This document shows positions 18,941-42,115 of a stretch of DNA of 64,000 nucleotides, one piece after another (within the stretch, counting starts at the first letter, position 1; each line of letters starts with the position of its first letter). The stretch covers positions 186,001 to 250,000 of the forward strand of contig JAODTK010005681.1 in assembly GCA_026419785.1 (NCBI GenBank), written 5' to 3'. A program made the position numbers and the translations under genes. This stretch comes from Sclerodactyla briareus (taxonomy: Eukaryota > Echinodermata > Holothuroidea > Dendrochirotida > Sclerodactylidae). The notes under the pieces are model-generated. The model searched no databases and had not been told where the DNA came from. It saw only the letters and a program-made list of their open reading frames with translations.

Positions 18941-20680
18941 TTTCACTTGGAAATTAGCTTAACCTATTCTGCATTAGGGACATACATATACAAATAGCAA
19001 CTAAATCAGTGAGTTCTCGGGTCACAAAAGACCTAATGTTATCAATTATTCCATAAAGTAGGTAAGACACCCATATCAGCTAATAGGAATATAAAAATCA
19101 ATGAAACTAGAAATTTCTGTTTGTTTTAGACCACCCAACATGAATTGCCATGTTTTGTCAGAAATTTGTCATATTCATGGTGTAACCCACACATACAATT
19201 TCGTCATGTGTTTTTCCAGTTTTTTTCACAAAAAACTCATGGATACTGAAAATATAGTACCCCGATCTACAAACTCGCACCAAATTTGGGTTTGCGGGGA
19301 CCTTCTAAATTGATGCCCAGGTGCCTTTCACAGAATTGTCCATTGCGAATCTAGCTTCATTTTTAGTACTTTTCTCTTATTTTTTACAATAGGGCCACAA
19401 AACCCACAACAAATTTCAGTCTAATCCAAATATGCAATCGAGGCAAAATTTCCACTTGTGATGTCATATGGAGAGCCGTGGGGAATTCATGTAATATTGA
19501 GGTAATGTGAAACAAGTATGTAAAAGAGGTGGAACATGAAAACACCAAGCAATTGTTCACATATAACAGAAATCAGATTTCCAAAGAAGATCTTGTTATG
19601 GGCTGTATGTTTACCTCCCCTTTTCTGTATGAAGGCACTTCAAGGTAAATTACAGTATTTACAGTGTGGTGAGTGGCTATGGGCACCTTTGAATCAATCC
19701 CCCCCGCCCCCCCCTCCCCCCCCCCCCCCCCCGCCTCCGCTTATATACCTACATCATGAATCCCATCTTGTAGAACCCGGCAGCAAGCAAGCATGAAGCT
19801 CTAAATTGGTGTGACTGGCTTTTGATATGTTAAGGTCTTTCTTTGCTCACGTGCTAGTTCACAGGTCACATATGAGCTTAAAATATTCATTGAAATAACA
19901 GTGGTGCTTAGAAATGAAAGTGAGAAGTGTAAAACAATATAGTGGGGAAAATTAGGGAAGGAGTCAGCCCATTTGTTTATTGTGGAACTGGAAGTAGAAG
20001 GGGCTCAACTGTTTTACTTCCAAACAGGAACAACTACTTACGAATGCGCAGCCCTCCGTCTTCTCATATCCTGATCTTAAAGATCAGATTCATGTCAACC
20101 AAATGAACGGCCATTGAAATGAAAGTGTAAAAAGACTGTCCAGGACATCTCTTTATCTCTTTCCATGTGACAAGGGAATTAAAAAAGAAAAAAAAAGAAA
20201 ATGGAAAGCCTCTGATTAGGGCCATCATTTTTTCTTTTTAACCCTTGTCGGAGTTACAGGTGAAAGGATATGTACGGCAGATTATGCACACAATTTGGGA
20301 TTATGTTGTAATGACCTAACTGCTTTCATCAAAATCATGCCAAGTCAAGCCAAGTTAATGTCATGATAAAACCAGCCTGATGCAAATACATGTGCGATGT
20401 GGGGGCAGGTGGGTGGAATTTAATAAAAAACAAAACGCTCAGTTCAGGCCTTTTGAGAACCAGTACTACTAATACAGCATATGCAGATCATATTTGCATT
20501 CATATGAACGAGGCATGTCGTGTTTGTGCACAGCCAAGTAAATTGACATAACTCTTATGGAAATCAGGAAAAGTAAGAGTTAAGATTTTCAAATAAGCGG
20601 AACTCTGACCATAGTAATTGGGCATAATTTCAGTCCTCAACTTATCGGAACAGTGCCCGCTTCCTTCCCCACCAGTTTGT
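18941..20680. other. no confident gene
   Basis: Apart from the C tract this is unique AT-rich sequence. A donor-like site at 20036 on the minus strand follows a short open segment, which is insufficient to call an exon. Confidence 0.5.
19699..19737 (+). repeat. C-rich homopolymeric tract
   Basis: About 38 bases of C with isolated G and T. The poly-proline frame through it is not evidence of a gene. Confidence 0.9.
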
Positions 20681-20692
20681 GTTTTTTTCCCC

Positions 20693-22135
20693 TACTCAAG
20701 TGTTCATTGTACTACTCAACTCTATGTTCATGCCTACTCAACTCTATTGATTCAAACCCTACTCAACTATTGTTCATTCCTATCAACTCTATTGATCAAA
20801 TCCTACTCAACTCTAAGTTCCATTACTACTCACACTATATGATCAACCTACTCAACTCTATCGTTCATTCCTACTCAACTCTATTGATCAACCCTACTCA
20901 ACTCTATGTTCATCATACTCAACTTATTGATCAACCCTACTCAACTCTTTGTCATCCTATCAGCTCTATTTATCACCCTACTCACTCTATTGTCATTCCT
21001 ACTCAGCTCTATTGATCAACCCTAACGCAACTGATCTTTCATTCCTACTCAACTCTATTGATCAAAAACCCTACTAACTATTGTTCAAATCCTATCAAAT
21101 CTATTGATCAACCCTACTCAACTATATTGTCATTCCTACTCAAGTCTTTTGATCAACCCTACTCAACTCTATGTTCAATTCCTACTCAGCTTATTGTCAA
21201 CCCTACTCAACTCTTATTGTTCATTCCTTTTAAACCTAAACTCTATTGATCAACCCTACCAACTATAGTGTTCAGTCCTACTCAACGCTATGATCAACCC
21301 TACTCAACTCTATCATTCATTCCTACTCAACTCTATTGATCAAACCTACTCAACTCTCATTCATTCCTACTCAACTTATTGATCAACCCTACTCAACTCT
21401 AGGTTAATTCCTACTCACTCTATATTGATCAACCCTACTCAACTCTATTGTTATTCCTACTCAACTCTATTGATCACCCTACTCAACTCTATCATTCATC
21501 CTACTCAACTCTATGATCAACCCGACCAACTCTATCATTCATTCCTACTCAACTCGATTGAGAACCCTACTCAACTCTATGTTCTTCCTAATCAACCTCT
21601 ATTGATCAACCCTACTAAACTATTGTTCATTCCTAATCAACTCTATTGATAAACCCTACTACAACTTATTGGTTCATGCCTACTCAACTTTTGATCAACC
21701 CTACTCAACTATTGTTCATTCCTAACTCAAACTCTATTGATCAACCGAGGCCATCTACTCAACTCTATCATTCATCCCACTCAACTCTATGATTTCAACT
21801 ACTCAACTTATAATCATTCTACTCAACCTTAGTGATCAACCCTCTCAACGCTATTGTTCATGCTACTCAACTCTTTTGATCAACCCTACTCAACTCTATG
21901 GTTCATGTCCTACTCAACTCTATTGGATCACCATACAAAACTCTTTTGTTTATTCATACTCAACTCTATTGATCAAATCTACTCAACTCTATTGTTTCCG
22001 TATCAACTCTATTGATCAACCCTACCACACACTCGATTGTCATTCCTAATTTATTGTTCTTTCCGAAAAACCTCAATGTTCCTTCTTACTTTATTGCTCA
22101 TTCCACTCCACTCTATTTTCATCTACTCAACTCAT
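20693..22135 (+). repeat. 1.4-kb minisatellite of alternating 23-bp units
   Basis: The array alternates two related units, CTACTCAACTCTATTGATCA plus ACC and CTACTCAACTCTATTGTTCA plus TTC, giving a 46-bp higher-order repeat. I estimate about 60 half-units. Many units have single-base deletions in runs, so a 46-bp period never holds a long reading frame, and the NSIDQPYSTL-like open frames are shadows. The left edge grades in from unique sequence at about 20690 and the right edge decays by 22135. Confidence 0.95.
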
Positions 22136-26439: not shown

Positions 26440-27019
26440 ATTGGAAATTATTATGCCATAGGGAAAATTCAATGACCTCTACTGACCCCAGCTGTACCTT
26501 CAAAAATTTTATCAGGATCAAAGGTTGTATTCACATCTACCAAGTTTTGTGGAAAGCAACAAACTTTCAAGAATTGAATAATTATGCAAATTTGAACACA
26601 TTAGAGACCGCCAGTGACCCCGAAGACATCACTTTTAAATTTTCGGGAACCATGGTAGACCAAATCCACCAAGTTCATTGAGAATCCGGACAACTTGGGG
26701 AAAAATTTTGCATAAATTATGCAAATGATGACAACTTAATTAGCATATTTTAGGCGGAAACTAAAATCAGTTCATCTACCTGTCATCCAGGTTCCTAATG
26801 CCAAAACACACACTGTATTCACATTACATTTTTGCGTAATCCTGCTAACGAGCGTTGAACAATAATTTACATAAAATGAAAAGTAATTACCCAACTTAAT
26901 TAATGACTACGTGCCCCCCAAAAATCTAATCAGATCGTTGTACACTTCCAACCCCGGTTGCTACACTCAAAACTTTATCATAGTCGGCCCTTACGGGTTG
27001 TGAGGAAAGAAATTCTTGC
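26440..27019 (+). repeat. family B repeat, left part of an interrupted copy
   Basis: Matches the family B block order (GACCTCTACTGACCCC, ATTATGCAAATT, CCACCAAGTTCATTGAGAAT, TAATTAGCATATTTTAGGC, CTAACGAGC). It stops abruptly at AAATTCTTGC (27010-27019) and resumes at 29116 with CGAGAAAGTGTGACATAC, the two halves of one copy. Confidence 0.75.
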
Positions 27020-27060
27020 TATCCCTTCTGGAAATTTAGCGTGAAATAAGTATGAATTAC

Positions 27061-27158
27061 GTCAGTTTTAAGATTGAATTGAGTCAGTTCATAATGGTTT
27101 CCTATTTTCAGGCTCGATACTGAACTTCACACTGACGTATTTCAAGCTTAAAACTGAC
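27061..27158. repeat. subterminal inverted repeats in the TIR element
   Basis: GTCAGTTTTAAG (27061-27072) is the exact reverse complement of CTTAAAACTGAC (27147-27158), and ACGTCAGT/ACTGACGT nests inside. Multiple GTCAGT motifs near the end could be transposase binding sites. Confidence 0.7.
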
Positions 27159-28544
27159 TAATGCCATGCTTTACAAAAATTTCAAACTATTTCAAACTCA
27201 TTTCATACTTAAATTCCAGGCTTCTAACTGGACTAGATTTACTTTGGACTATTTATTCTCATCCACTGCCACCAATGAAAGGTATAGGCATATTTGAGTT
27301 TGACTTTTTCAGAGTGTGTTAGGACCTGCTTAGATATTTTTATTGAGAAAAACACACAGCTGTTGTATTGGAATGTCATCTGCAAAAATGACTTGTTCAG
27401 GCCATTTCTGACTATCTGTCAGTGGTTTTAAATGCCCAAGTGACCAATGATGGCCTGAGTTCAACTAGCACTGGCAGCTGGTATTGGTCAATTTCAAGGA
27501 GAATTTTTATGAGGATGTTGAGAAATGCTGTGGTGCTGGGTATACATGTAGTAAAATAGTAGCTAGAAAGCCAAAGACACAAACTGTGTTTGTTCTGTGT
27601 GCACTAGCACTGATGGATTCAGCAGCGTGTGTTAGTTGCATGCAGAATCAAAGAAGTGAAGACCAAATCCTATGTTTGAGAGAAAGTTATATCCATGAAT
27701 GAAAATTGGTTGGTACACTGTAAGTAGACTTGGATTTTCGTAGCTAGTTAGGGTTAGATTGTACACTGCATGGACTGACAAAATTTCCTGGTAAGTGTTG
27801 AACCTAATTTGGCCATTGTTTTGTAAGATATAGTTGTGCATGCATGGGTCTTTTGAAAGTGAAGAAGGAAGAAAGAAAAAACCCGTATAGCTTTACGCTG
27901 TGAATTATCATTCTCAAGGTGTAGCTAATGTAAGCAAATGTAAAAATGGTCATAGCATTAAGCAGTGAGAACAAATAGAAGAGTTGTGTTCAGTACCTGT
28001 GCAGTTAGAAATTAATTATACTGCCTGTATGCTAGGATAGATTAGGAATTGGTCAGTCCAGTAGGCCTTGAAAGTTGGTATTTTTGGAGGGTTGGTAAAT
28101 GTCATACATAATACAATTTAGTAGGTTGACCGAGCTAATTAATTGTAATAGTAGCTGAAGTATTTAAATATGACGGCCACGAGGCTGGTGATGGGGTTTT
28201 AAGAGACTTAAGCAGGAATTTGGGAAACAAAATGAAATAAATGGAAAAAAGTGAAAGAGAGCACACTGCTAGCTAAGCTGTTAGTGTAGCAAATTCAAAT
28301 GTATAGAATTTCAAACTATTCAGCACAGTAATATAGAAGTTTAGCTCTGAAACACTTCCCCCCATCAACCTAAGCCACCTTACCTGTATAAGTCTATAAT
28401 CAGACAGAAAGTCTTAGAATTTAGCAGAGTTTCGTAGTTGGTTATCTGGAAATGTATTTATCCAGGAACCATAACCACAAAGTCCTTTTTTTCAAATCTT
28501 GTCAGGAAATAGACATATGCCCATATCTTGATAAGAATCTGCAG

Positions 28545-28975
28545 GAGTTGTGAGGCTAGGCTTTCCAAGTCAGGAATATACGTCCAAATACAGACGGATT
28601 TAAGTCAAGGAATACACCCAATTCAGGGCTGATTTAAGTCAGGATCCACCCCCATTTCAGGCATTGATTTAAGTCAGGAATCCACCCCAATTTCATCCTG
28701 GATTTTAGTCAGAATTGCCACCACAATTTCAGGCTTGATTTAGTCAGGAATCCACTAACAATTTCATTACTTGTTTGGTAAGGAATCTGCCTGGCAATTC
28801 AGGATGATTTTTAAAGTAGGAATCTACCTCAATTTCAGCCTTGAGTTAAATCAGGAATCCACTGCAATTTCAGGCTATGAACAAGTCAGGAATCCCAGGT
28901 TTTCATAATTGATCAAATTGACAAGTCAGGAATTTTGTATAATTCAGGACTAAAGTTCCATATGCCCATGCAGGA
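28545..28975 (+). repeat. ~39-bp minisatellite inside the TIR element
   Basis: Roughly ten degenerate units of the form AATTTCAGGCTTGATTTAAG / TCAGGAATCCACCCC. Substitutions and small indels distinguish every unit, so it is old compared with the 17-bp array at 43.1 kb. Confidence 0.85.
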
Positions 28976-29115
28976 TTTTAAAAAATAATATGTGCCCATT
29001 TCGGCATGATGAAACAAGCCTCGAAAAAAGGCTGGCCATCGTTCCAATTCGCACTAACTGACTAAAGCAATTTCATACTCAAATTACAGACGCTTGATTT
29101 TTTCCAGAAGGGATA

Positions 29116-29205
29116 CGAGAAAGTGTGACATACACCACACACAACACAATAGTGACTACTATGTTCTCTCTGAATTTCATTCAGGCAGACAAAAACTAGC
29201 TCCTA
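29116..29205 (+). repeat. family B repeat, right part of the interrupted copy
   Basis: CGAGAAAGTGTGACATACAC, the CA-rich block, then ATTTCATTCAGGCAGAC, continuing family B exactly where the copy at 26440-27019 breaks off. Confidence 0.7.
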
Positions 29206-31367: not shown

Positions 31368-31960
31368 CAGCCCTCAGATGGGGAGAGGGGGATTGTTGTC
31401 AAGGTTATTTTTTCTATTGTACTGATCCAACAATATCAGAGGGAGGGTAAATTTGTCTCATATCCTACACCTTAAACAACAATATTTCTGTGTAGGGGAG
31501 TGGGGTTTGCCGCAAGATTTTTTCGGGGGAAGGGTCCTCATCCCAGCCCTATCCCACCTCCGATGGGGAGTGGGCAATTGTTGTCAGGTTTTTTTTTTTC
31601 CTATTGTACTTGATCCAACATTTTCAGGAAGGGCGGGTAAACTTTGTCCTCATATTCATACAAGCATTAAACAAGCACCATATTTCTGGGTAGGGGGAGT
31701 GGGTTGGCAAGATTTTTCGGGGGAAGGGTCAAATCATTCCCAGCCGACCAGGGGCCTCAGATGGGGAGGGGGGGCCAATTGTTGTCAGGTTTTTTTTTTT
31801 TTTATGGTACGTGATCCAACATTTTTCAGAAAAGGGGATGTCGTAACTGGTCTCATATTCTAAAAGCATTAAAACAAACACAATACTTCTGAATAGGAAA
31901 GTGGGTTGGCAAAGACTTTTGGGGGGGGAGGGTTCAACGCTCATATCCAAATTGAGCATT
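31368..31960 (+). repeat. ~190-bp tandem repeat, three copies
   Basis: Starts at CAGCCCTCAGATGGGGAGAG (31368), then about 31542 and 31741, and each copy has GATGGGGAG, ATTGTTGTCAGG plus a T run, GATCCAACA, and TGGGTTGGCAAGATTTTTCG. Copies differ by indels, especially in G and T runs. Confidence 0.85.
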
Positions 31961-35089: not shown

Positions 35090-35640
35090 AAAATGAGACT
35101 AAAGGTAGACCCTACCTACCCCACCAAGTTTCAATGGGATACCACCAACTTTGGGATAATTCATGCAATTGAACATGTTCCCACATGTTTTTTTTCTTAA
35201 TCTACAAACTCGATTTTTTTGCAATTATGCAAATTAATTACTTAATTAGCATTTTTCACGATGAAAATCCCAATCAGTTAATCTAAACTTATATCCTTAA
35301 CTATGATTGCCAAACAAAATCAATCACCATATTACCAACGTTTGTCTGTGATCTTTGCTAACAGCCTCAGGAATAAATTACATAAATATCTAATACTCTA
35401 TCCACCTAATTAGTACTTTCGTGTCCAGAAACCAATCAGATAGTTACACAGGCTGACCCATCCCAGTTCTACTAACAGAATACCATAAAAAATGCTATTA
35501 GCCATTCCAAGAAATCCTGCGAACGAGAATGTGTGACATATACCCATCCCCCACACATAACATACTACATATACATGCACACACGCCAAAGTGATCACAA
35601 TAATTTGAGCAGTATTTTGTATATTTTTTGACAATTTTTC
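35090..35640 (+). repeat. family B repeat, third copy
   Basis: Contains CCCACCAAGTTTCAATGGGA, ATTATGCAAATTAATTAC, AATTAGCATTTTTCACG, ATCCTGCGAACGAGAATGTG and the CA-rich tail. It is uninterrupted at the site where the copy at 27 kb holds the TIR element. Confidence 0.75.
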
Positions 35641-41059: not shown

Positions 41060-42115
41060 TCCAGGCATGTTCTGTGCAGCGATGGACACCCCTATTTTTT
41101 ACTCCTGGCTAATGCTCAGCTACAGGCAGTTTGGAGGTGCATAAGTATATTAAATGGGAGCCTGGTTAATTCTCTGGCCCAACCCCACCCACCTTTGTAG
41201 CCAAGTGCCGAACCCTGCCCACCATTATACTGACTGATGCCACTTACCATTGTAGAGGGAGGCCTCCCTAGCGGCTACAGGCATGTTTGAGGTGTATAGA
41301 ATATTACATGTAGCCATGTGTCCGATTCTGCCTTCCCCCACCCACCAATATCTGACCGGATGCCGAGGTTACCTACCATTGTAGATGGAGGCCTCCCATG
41401 CAGCTATAGGCATGTTGGAGGTGTATGTATGTTACATGTAGCCATGTGTCAGATTTTGCCCATTGCCCACCCACCAATATTCCTGACCCGATGCCGAGGT
41501 TACCTACCATTGTAGATGGAGGCCTCCCTATCGCAGTACAGGCATGTTGGAGGTGCATAGAATATTACATGTAGGCCATGTGCAGATTCTGCCCGCCCCA
41601 CCCACCAATATTCTGCACGGAGGGCCGATGTTACCTCCAGTATAGATGGCGGCCTCCCTATCAGCTAACAGGCATGTTGGAGGTAAATAATAGAATATTA
41701 CATATTTAGCCATGTGTCAGATTTTTCCCTCCCCCCCCACCAATATTCTGACCGATGCCGATGTTACGCCTACCATTGTGATGATGGGCCTCTCCTAGCA
41801 GCTACAGGCATGTTGGAGGTGTTGAATATTACATGTCGTCTGTGTCAGATTCTGCCCTCGCCCACCCCCACCCACCAAGATTCTGAACCCGATGGCCGAG
41901 GTTACCTACCGTGTAGATGGAGGCCTCCCTAGCAGCTACAGGCTTTGAAGTATTTATAGAATATTACTTGTAGCCATGTGTCAGATTCTGCCCTCTCCCA
42001 CCCCCATTATCTGACTGTATGCGAGAGATCACTACCACCCAACTCACCGAATGGAAGATGTAGGCCTAACCCTAGCAGCTACAGGCATGTTGGAAATGTT
42101 GCCACGAGGGCAGTA
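41060..42115 (+). repeat. ~131-bp satellite array, about eight copies
   Basis: Each unit has GCAGCTACAGGCATGTTGGA, GGTGTATAGAATATTACATG, TAGCCATGTGTCAGATTCTG, CCCACCCACCAATATTCTGA and ACCTACCATTGTAGATGGAG. The ACAGGCATG block recurs near 41122, 41280, 41410, 41541, 41672, 41808, 41941 and 42083. The first unit is longer, at about 158 bases. All open frames within are repeat shadows. Confidence 0.9.

Follow-up and report, generated by a model that had tools for sequence, protein, structure and literature searches.

We begin by considering what kind of mobile element occupies positions 27,023 to 29,112 of this stretch of Sclerodactyla briareus DNA, where exactly it ends and how it might have moved. 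The window, here and below, is the whole stretch of 64,000 nucleotides that was analysed. The answer that we consider likely is a DNA transposon of the cut-and-paste kind, non-autonomous and by now decayed, that belongs to the TRC (animal CACTA/EnSpm) type and was mobilised in trans.

The host repeat and the boundaries of the element

The original prediction described a discrete element with inverted ends nested in a host repeat, and this part of it stands. The left half of the interrupted repeat lies at 27007..27021 and the right half at 29115..29136 (both on the + strand). When the flanks are joined in silico, they match the uninterrupted copy at 35509..35544 (+ strand) with 86% identity over 37 bp, as had been claimed for a copy at 35.5 kb, and this copy can be taken as a paralogous empty site. 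The upstream segment 26706-26778 matches 35217-35285 in conserved order, co-linear with the empty-site match. A pattern search for the uninterrupted junction gives five further short matches (16-17 bases) genome-wide and none in the control. From the rejoined flanks and these uninterrupted junctions, the insertion into a host repeat is a sound reading of the sequence.

With the boundaries set by the family rule derived below, the element starts with CCC (27023) and ends with GGG (29112). It is a complete non-autonomous copy of 2,090 bp on the + strand, with ends common to copies genome-wide, so that the predicted element holds and its predicted length of 2,092 bp does not. At each end, 12 bases form a perfect inverted repeat, CCCTTCTGGAAA at 27023..27034 (+) and TTTCCAGAAGGG at 29101..29112 (-), and the family ends in short form are CCCTTCTGG...CCAGAAGGG. 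The well-conserved inverted ends of about 50 bp that had been proposed are not seen, as the 48 bp inside the 12-bp repeat align globally at the level of shuffled sequence (p 0.34); a gapped local alignment of the window-copy ends does extend to 45-57 bases, possibly by chance.

Outside these ends, the left flank closes with GCTAT and the right flank opens with ATACGAG. By the 2-bp family rule from 18 copies, the target-site duplication is AT at 27021..27022 and 29113..29114. The perfect 15-bp arms at 27020-27034 and 29101-29115 are then the 12-bp terminal repeat, the AT and one base beyond; the inverted repeat of this copy appears longer because the AT/AT duplication is self-complementary, and the outer T...A is best read as part of the duplication, outside the element. 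AT reads the same on both strands, so the window copy alone cannot separate this reading from a TA duplication one base further out, which may apply at this site. The five empty copies read GCTAACGAG (three), GCTACGAG (one) and GCTCACGAG (one). The sequence predicted by the AT reading, GCTATACGAG, lies within the search pattern and occurs in 0/5, which argues against AT here, while GCTACGAG is the exact prediction of the TA reading and occurs in 1/5. Taken alone, the empty copies lean towards TA at the window site; AT is preferred on account of the duplications in other copies of the family.

A family of copies and its target duplication

The next question is whether the element has relatives with the same ends. 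The genome searched holds 319,486,128 bases in 3,171 contigs, and the whole-element query gives at least 31 matches. They include eleven long copies of full or nearly full length, the window copy among them (eight single matches and three split into two rows), and the ten others (C2786, C1626, C1973, C2527, C905, C2707, C3009, C686, C2943 and C2352) are 76-80% identical. The same query also matched shorter or more distant relatives (C719, C230, C2660) and gave end-only matches. Among the eleven long copies pairwise identity is 72-81%, and each differs from the per-column majority by 11.4-17.2% (window copy 14.0%). This first subfamily is judged to be old from the distance of 11-17% between its copies and their majority; the copies are near-equidistant, as expected for an old burst, and such divergence suggests a subfamily that has probably ceased to move.

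A second subfamily, whose members measure about 1.93 kb, appears with the query C3133:474854-476779, which gave at least 54 matches (47 candidates, 40 scored), 20 of the 54, query included, spanning at least 1,800 of 1,926 bases. Eight of its copies are mutually 76-93% identical, which makes part of it younger. The majority sequences of the two subfamilies agree at 74% over the left ~350 bp, at 90% over the right 108 bp and at ~69-75% in the array regions, and their interiors share only one 53-bp piece. The third subfamily was entered via the C2964 end, whose first 180 bases give 13 matches; its copies at C329 and C1989 measure 1,150 bp between ends and 1,955 bp, respectively. The element query, the second-subfamily query and the end reads together give three subfamilies with common ends.

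Searches with the ends agree with this picture of many further copies, whose absence would have told against the original prediction. The 28-base left end with up to three mismatches has 22 matches against 0 for the reversed-pattern control, and CCCTTCTGGAAAWWW occurs 54 times genome-wide against 5 in the control. Six of the 26 unassigned CCCTTCTGGAAAWWW ends were read ~180 bases inward; two (C2964, C3110) look like members and the other four do not. Of six short reads at five further places, those at both C329 ends and at C2902 fall in the third subfamily, and the C2778, C2490 and C2844 reads gave no clear assignment. These reads cover 11 of the 26 places; among the other 15, C2249 is placed in the third subfamily by the search with the first 180 bases. 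Two ends that fit the 15-base end pattern, at C3043:336634 (L089) and C3119:254293 (L092), belong to another repeat and are mutually alike, with a G-rich start and then GATCTGACAAAAGTGGGGGG. By eye, the left end keeps CCC in 17/20 copies (exceptions C1973, C2707 and C3089), and the CCC and GGG ends are common to copies in unrelated flanks.

We turn our attention to the bases directly outside these ends. Both ends of 20 copies are tabulated and 17 copies are scored, C2707, C686 and the second C1973 copy being left out of scoring for their eroded ends and C1626 out of the table for its disrupted left end. Where CCC or GGG is shifted or mutated, the boundary was placed by eye ahead of scoring; C437, C2486 and C3009 are scored strictly as non-matching, and a one-base shift would give a match. 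Identical dinucleotides flank CCC and GGG in 9/17 copies against 2.0 under shuffled pairing (p 5e-5), and over the 2-bp flanks 23/34 positions match, with 9.7-9.8 expected. Adding C329, the only third-subfamily copy with both ends read, gives 10/18 (expected 2.0), or 10/22 if the four set-aside copies count as failures. The matched duplications are AT, AT, TA, CG, TG, GT, TA, GG, TG and TC, seven kinds in 18 copies.

Could these matches simply be a longer inverted repeat? Eight copies have a left dinucleotide that is not its own reverse complement, and four of these show a direct match (expected 0.9, p 0.002), which argues for a duplication and not for a longer inverted repeat. Testing whether the inverted repeat extends two bases further does give 5/17 (expected 1.5, p 0.008), a result above chance because five of the nine matched dinucleotides are self-complementary and are counted in both tests.

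Other lengths were compared in the same 17 copies. A 3-bp duplication occurs in 0/17 (matching positions 14/51 against 13.4 expected), and flank lengths of 1, 3, 4, 6, 8 and 10 are at chance; lengths 5 and 9 have slightly more matching positions than expected (p 0.017 each), and length 7 is borderline (p 0.07). Two copies, C2327:56940-57715 (TATGT) and C3089:2721-4584 (TGTAT), have a full 5-bp match and none over 2 bp. These two give p 0.004 for a 5-bp duplication, which we reject as the rule with 15/17 copies lacking it. The TA that had been proposed as the target-site rule, one base further out, is found in 1/17 copies, the window copy itself, and in 0/16 others, and is likewise rejected for the family.

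Internal content and a possible source of transposase

As a family, these copies are taken to be non-coding. The longest stop-free run in the majority of the eleven copies is 105 aa, compared with a mean of 84 and a maximum of 166 in 200 shuffles, and a Pfam scan of six open frames in the window copy returned nothing above cut-off; this agrees with the earlier description of a non-autonomous element with no recognised transposase.

What the copies do contain is a short recurrent motif, defined as TTTCAGGCTT with up to two mismatches and picked from the family's own repeats. The subterminal repeats that had been predicted are present as clusters of this motif with inverted pairs. In the window copy, a left subterminal cluster (27037..27223, unstranded) has six matches in both orientations and includes the inverted pairs I1 and I2. 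A right subterminal tandem array (28597..28895, + strand) has ~8.5 copies of a 35-36 bp unit and four matches, so that the predicted minisatellite is a real tandem array with a unit shorter than the 39 bp proposed. In the majority sequence of the eleven long copies, the 35-bp unit of this array is repeated 8.9 times; the array stands at the right end only and is made of units carrying the motif. Counts of the motif are 11 in the window copy and 16-26 in the 18 further copies tested, where 30 shuffles per copy give means of 2.8-4.1; as the motif was drawn from repeats of the family itself, this excess is partly by construction. Its concentration near both ends is not: 196/207 matches in the first subfamily and 164/181 in the second (360/388 in total) fall within the opening two or closing three tenths of the element.

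Elsewhere in the window there are other tandem repeats. A 44-bp unit (CTACTCAACTATTGTTCATTC...) is repeated ~29 times at 20712-22025 and is poor in G on this strand, with a GC skew of -0.44 over 20001-22000, and further arrays lie at 31372-31926 (201-bp unit, 2.9 copies) and 41245-42015 (131-bp unit, 5.9 copies).

The family has moved in the past, as the ends shared among copies, the insertion into a host repeat and the target duplication demonstrate. We infer that a transposase supplied by another element would recognise the CCC...GGG termini and probably also the groups of TTTCAGGCTT-type sites that adjoin them on the inner side, which may act as docking points for the protein. The element would then be cut out and pasted into staggered breaks, leaving 2-bp target duplications of no fixed sequence.

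Where, then, is the source of this transposase? No match to the Transposase_21 domain (PF02992) occurs in the genome, in a search that was also silent in all 14 control genomes, and the Plavaka domain likewise has 0 genome matches, the control of that search being silent too. An autonomous relative with the family ends does not appear: no element of autonomous size is seen among the exact-end pairs and the one-mismatch ends listed. Convergent exact-end pairs on one contig stand 1.7-2.1 kb apart at C612, C2836 and C2924, and one further convergent pair, at C2786, is 40 kb apart and takes its ends from two different copies. The one-mismatch end pattern has 831 matches against 209 in the control, with ends paired only among the roughly 100 places listed; a variant, CCCCTCTGGAAAATT, recurs among these listed ends.

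Individual candidates were also considered. The longer C2877 copy is rejected as an autonomous element, as it carries another nested element. That nested element is foldback-like, with inverted arms of ~612 bp that are 73% identical (L086 27-638 / 1406-2044; C2877:50250-52480), and its host is a second-subfamily copy. At C2280, C3049 and C2561, where the second-subfamily match stops early, the stretches examined contain no long open frame (longest 149 aa, C2280). At C1989, a pair of left ends facing each other across 4.6 kb suggested a long element, but the right end of the 1,955-bp copy lies between them; at least one of these left ends is therefore part of a separate ordinary copy, and in the stretches read no right end was seen for the other. 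The YqaJ nuclease domain has a single genome match (C3170:235727-236140, in a frame of 227 aa without stops), ~24 kb from the family copy at C3170:209924-211853, and no link to the family is seen. Exact searches of viral_contigs and genome_contigs with the 27-base left end gave no match, in sets from which records near the source genome were possibly left out. In the literature, CCCTTCTGG alongside 'terminal inverted repeat' brought up nothing related; that search covered papers and not Repbase, and the family may be published.

Competing readings and comparison with known systems

Membership in TRC/CACTA is only inferred, from the architecture and the target duplication, since no autonomous partner was found and the Transposase_21 search had silent controls. 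Several observations speak against it: the missing autonomous copy and the empty Transposase_21 search, the termini after CCC that are unlike published TRC ends, the two copies that match over 5 bp and not over 2, the surplus of matching positions at lengths 5 and 9, an inverted-repeat test above chance, and the lack of the AT-predicted sequence among the five empty copies.

The same termini, together with the Transposase_21 and Plavaka searches without matches, would suit an undescribed superfamily that has CCC...GGG ends, makes 2-bp duplications of no fixed sequence and has a transposase either extinct or unrecognised here. We regard this as rather unlikely, as both searches had silent controls and the combination of CCC core, 2-bp duplication and one-sided array is already known in SmTRC1 (PMC1636069). 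It is also improbable, in our estimate, that the copies are remnants of a lineage outside TRC/CACTA that gained these features independently and left at least three non-coding subfamilies after losing its transposase.

A 2-bp duplication is also made by ISL2EU, which duplicates AT within A|AT|T (PMC4482050). AT on both sides of the window copy and of C2786, and the one YqaJ match in the genome, would fit ISL2EU or another PHIS element, a reading that we consider very improbable. Its AT-specific target differs from the seven kinds of matched duplication, and the YqaJ match is ~24 kb from the known copy on its contig; the range of duplications refutes ISL2EU unless most of them are erosion artefacts. 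Still less credible is a Tc1/mariner-type element with TA target sites, as the original prediction implied: the window copy does read TA|T...A|TA, and one empty copy fits TA exactly with none of five fitting AT, but TA stands at that offset in none of the 16 other copies and the duplications are not TA-specific. We give practically no weight to a foldback element or a chance inverted repeat, as the inverted subterminal repeats and tandem array that suggested a foldback-type structure are accompanied by a perfect terminal repeat of only 12 bp with chance-level sequence inside it in the global alignment, by common CCC and GGG ends in unrelated flanks and by a 2-bp duplication. Two further groups are also set aside: plant-type CACTA, as the family ends are CCCTT and 3-bp matches are at chance, and PIF/Harbinger, whose 3-bp duplication is seen in none of the 17 copies.

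The value of these results is mainly for annotation: the family now has probable ends and a target rule, where a TA reading, if kept, could get it filed as mariner-like. The copies also provide a further case of subterminal sites in a tandem array within non-coding derivatives. If the partner transposase were found, the shared motif would make its binding site directly testable.

How does the family compare with known systems? Plant CACTA elements (En/Spm, Tgmt) resemble it in a short terminal repeat and asymmetric subterminal repeats in both orientations, and their non-autonomous derivatives are mobilised by proteins in trans, as proposed here; Tgmt is unlike the window element in its CACTA core and 3-bp duplication (PMC2613891). 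The plant subterminal repeats are described as bound by element-encoded proteins and required for movement (PMC2613891). In the family, subterminal repeats clustered at both ends are present in 19 copies, a CACTA-like architecture. In the wider clade, duplications measure 2-5 bp and termini are CA..TG in most cases, so that CCC ends are not the majority form there (PMC12730594).

The closest likeness is to TRC. In Schistosoma, the CACTA-related element SmTRC1 combines CCC termini with a 3' tandem-repeat region, and 7/14 of its copies show a 2-bp direct repeat; its Tribolium and Aedes relatives are reported to start with CCC and to have 2-bp repeats (PMC1636069). The family shares with SmTRC1 and other TRC elements the CCC termini, a 2-bp duplication in about half of the copies and insertion into repeats, and with SmTRC1 a one-sided tandem array (PMC1636069). 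SmTRC1 differs in being a coding element of 4.5 kb with Transposase_21 and 54-bp inverted repeats (PMC1636069), whereas the window element has no recognised gene and a 12-bp terminal repeat of other sequence after CCC. In Hydra, Spongebob_HMa (EnSpm-4N1_HM) was assigned to TRC by its CCC start and 2-bp duplication; like the family it has non-autonomous relatives, and its terminus, CCCAGCCAACATTGAC, differs from that of the window element (PMC4298943).

The Repbase rule, as described, asks for an alignment of the 11 outermost bases to a known family with at most one mismatch, and for duplications of equal length (PMC4455052). Compared by eye with three published ends only, the family agrees at ~7/11 bases with Tribolium and at fewer with Aedes and Hydra, short of that agreement. 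The CCC start and the 2-bp duplication of TRC, and the one-sided tandem array described for SmTRC1, are present. The proposal of an undescribed family is thereby narrowed: the particular family is possibly uncatalogued, and its kind is probably known, since both architecture and duplication match the TRC branch of CACTA/EnSpm.
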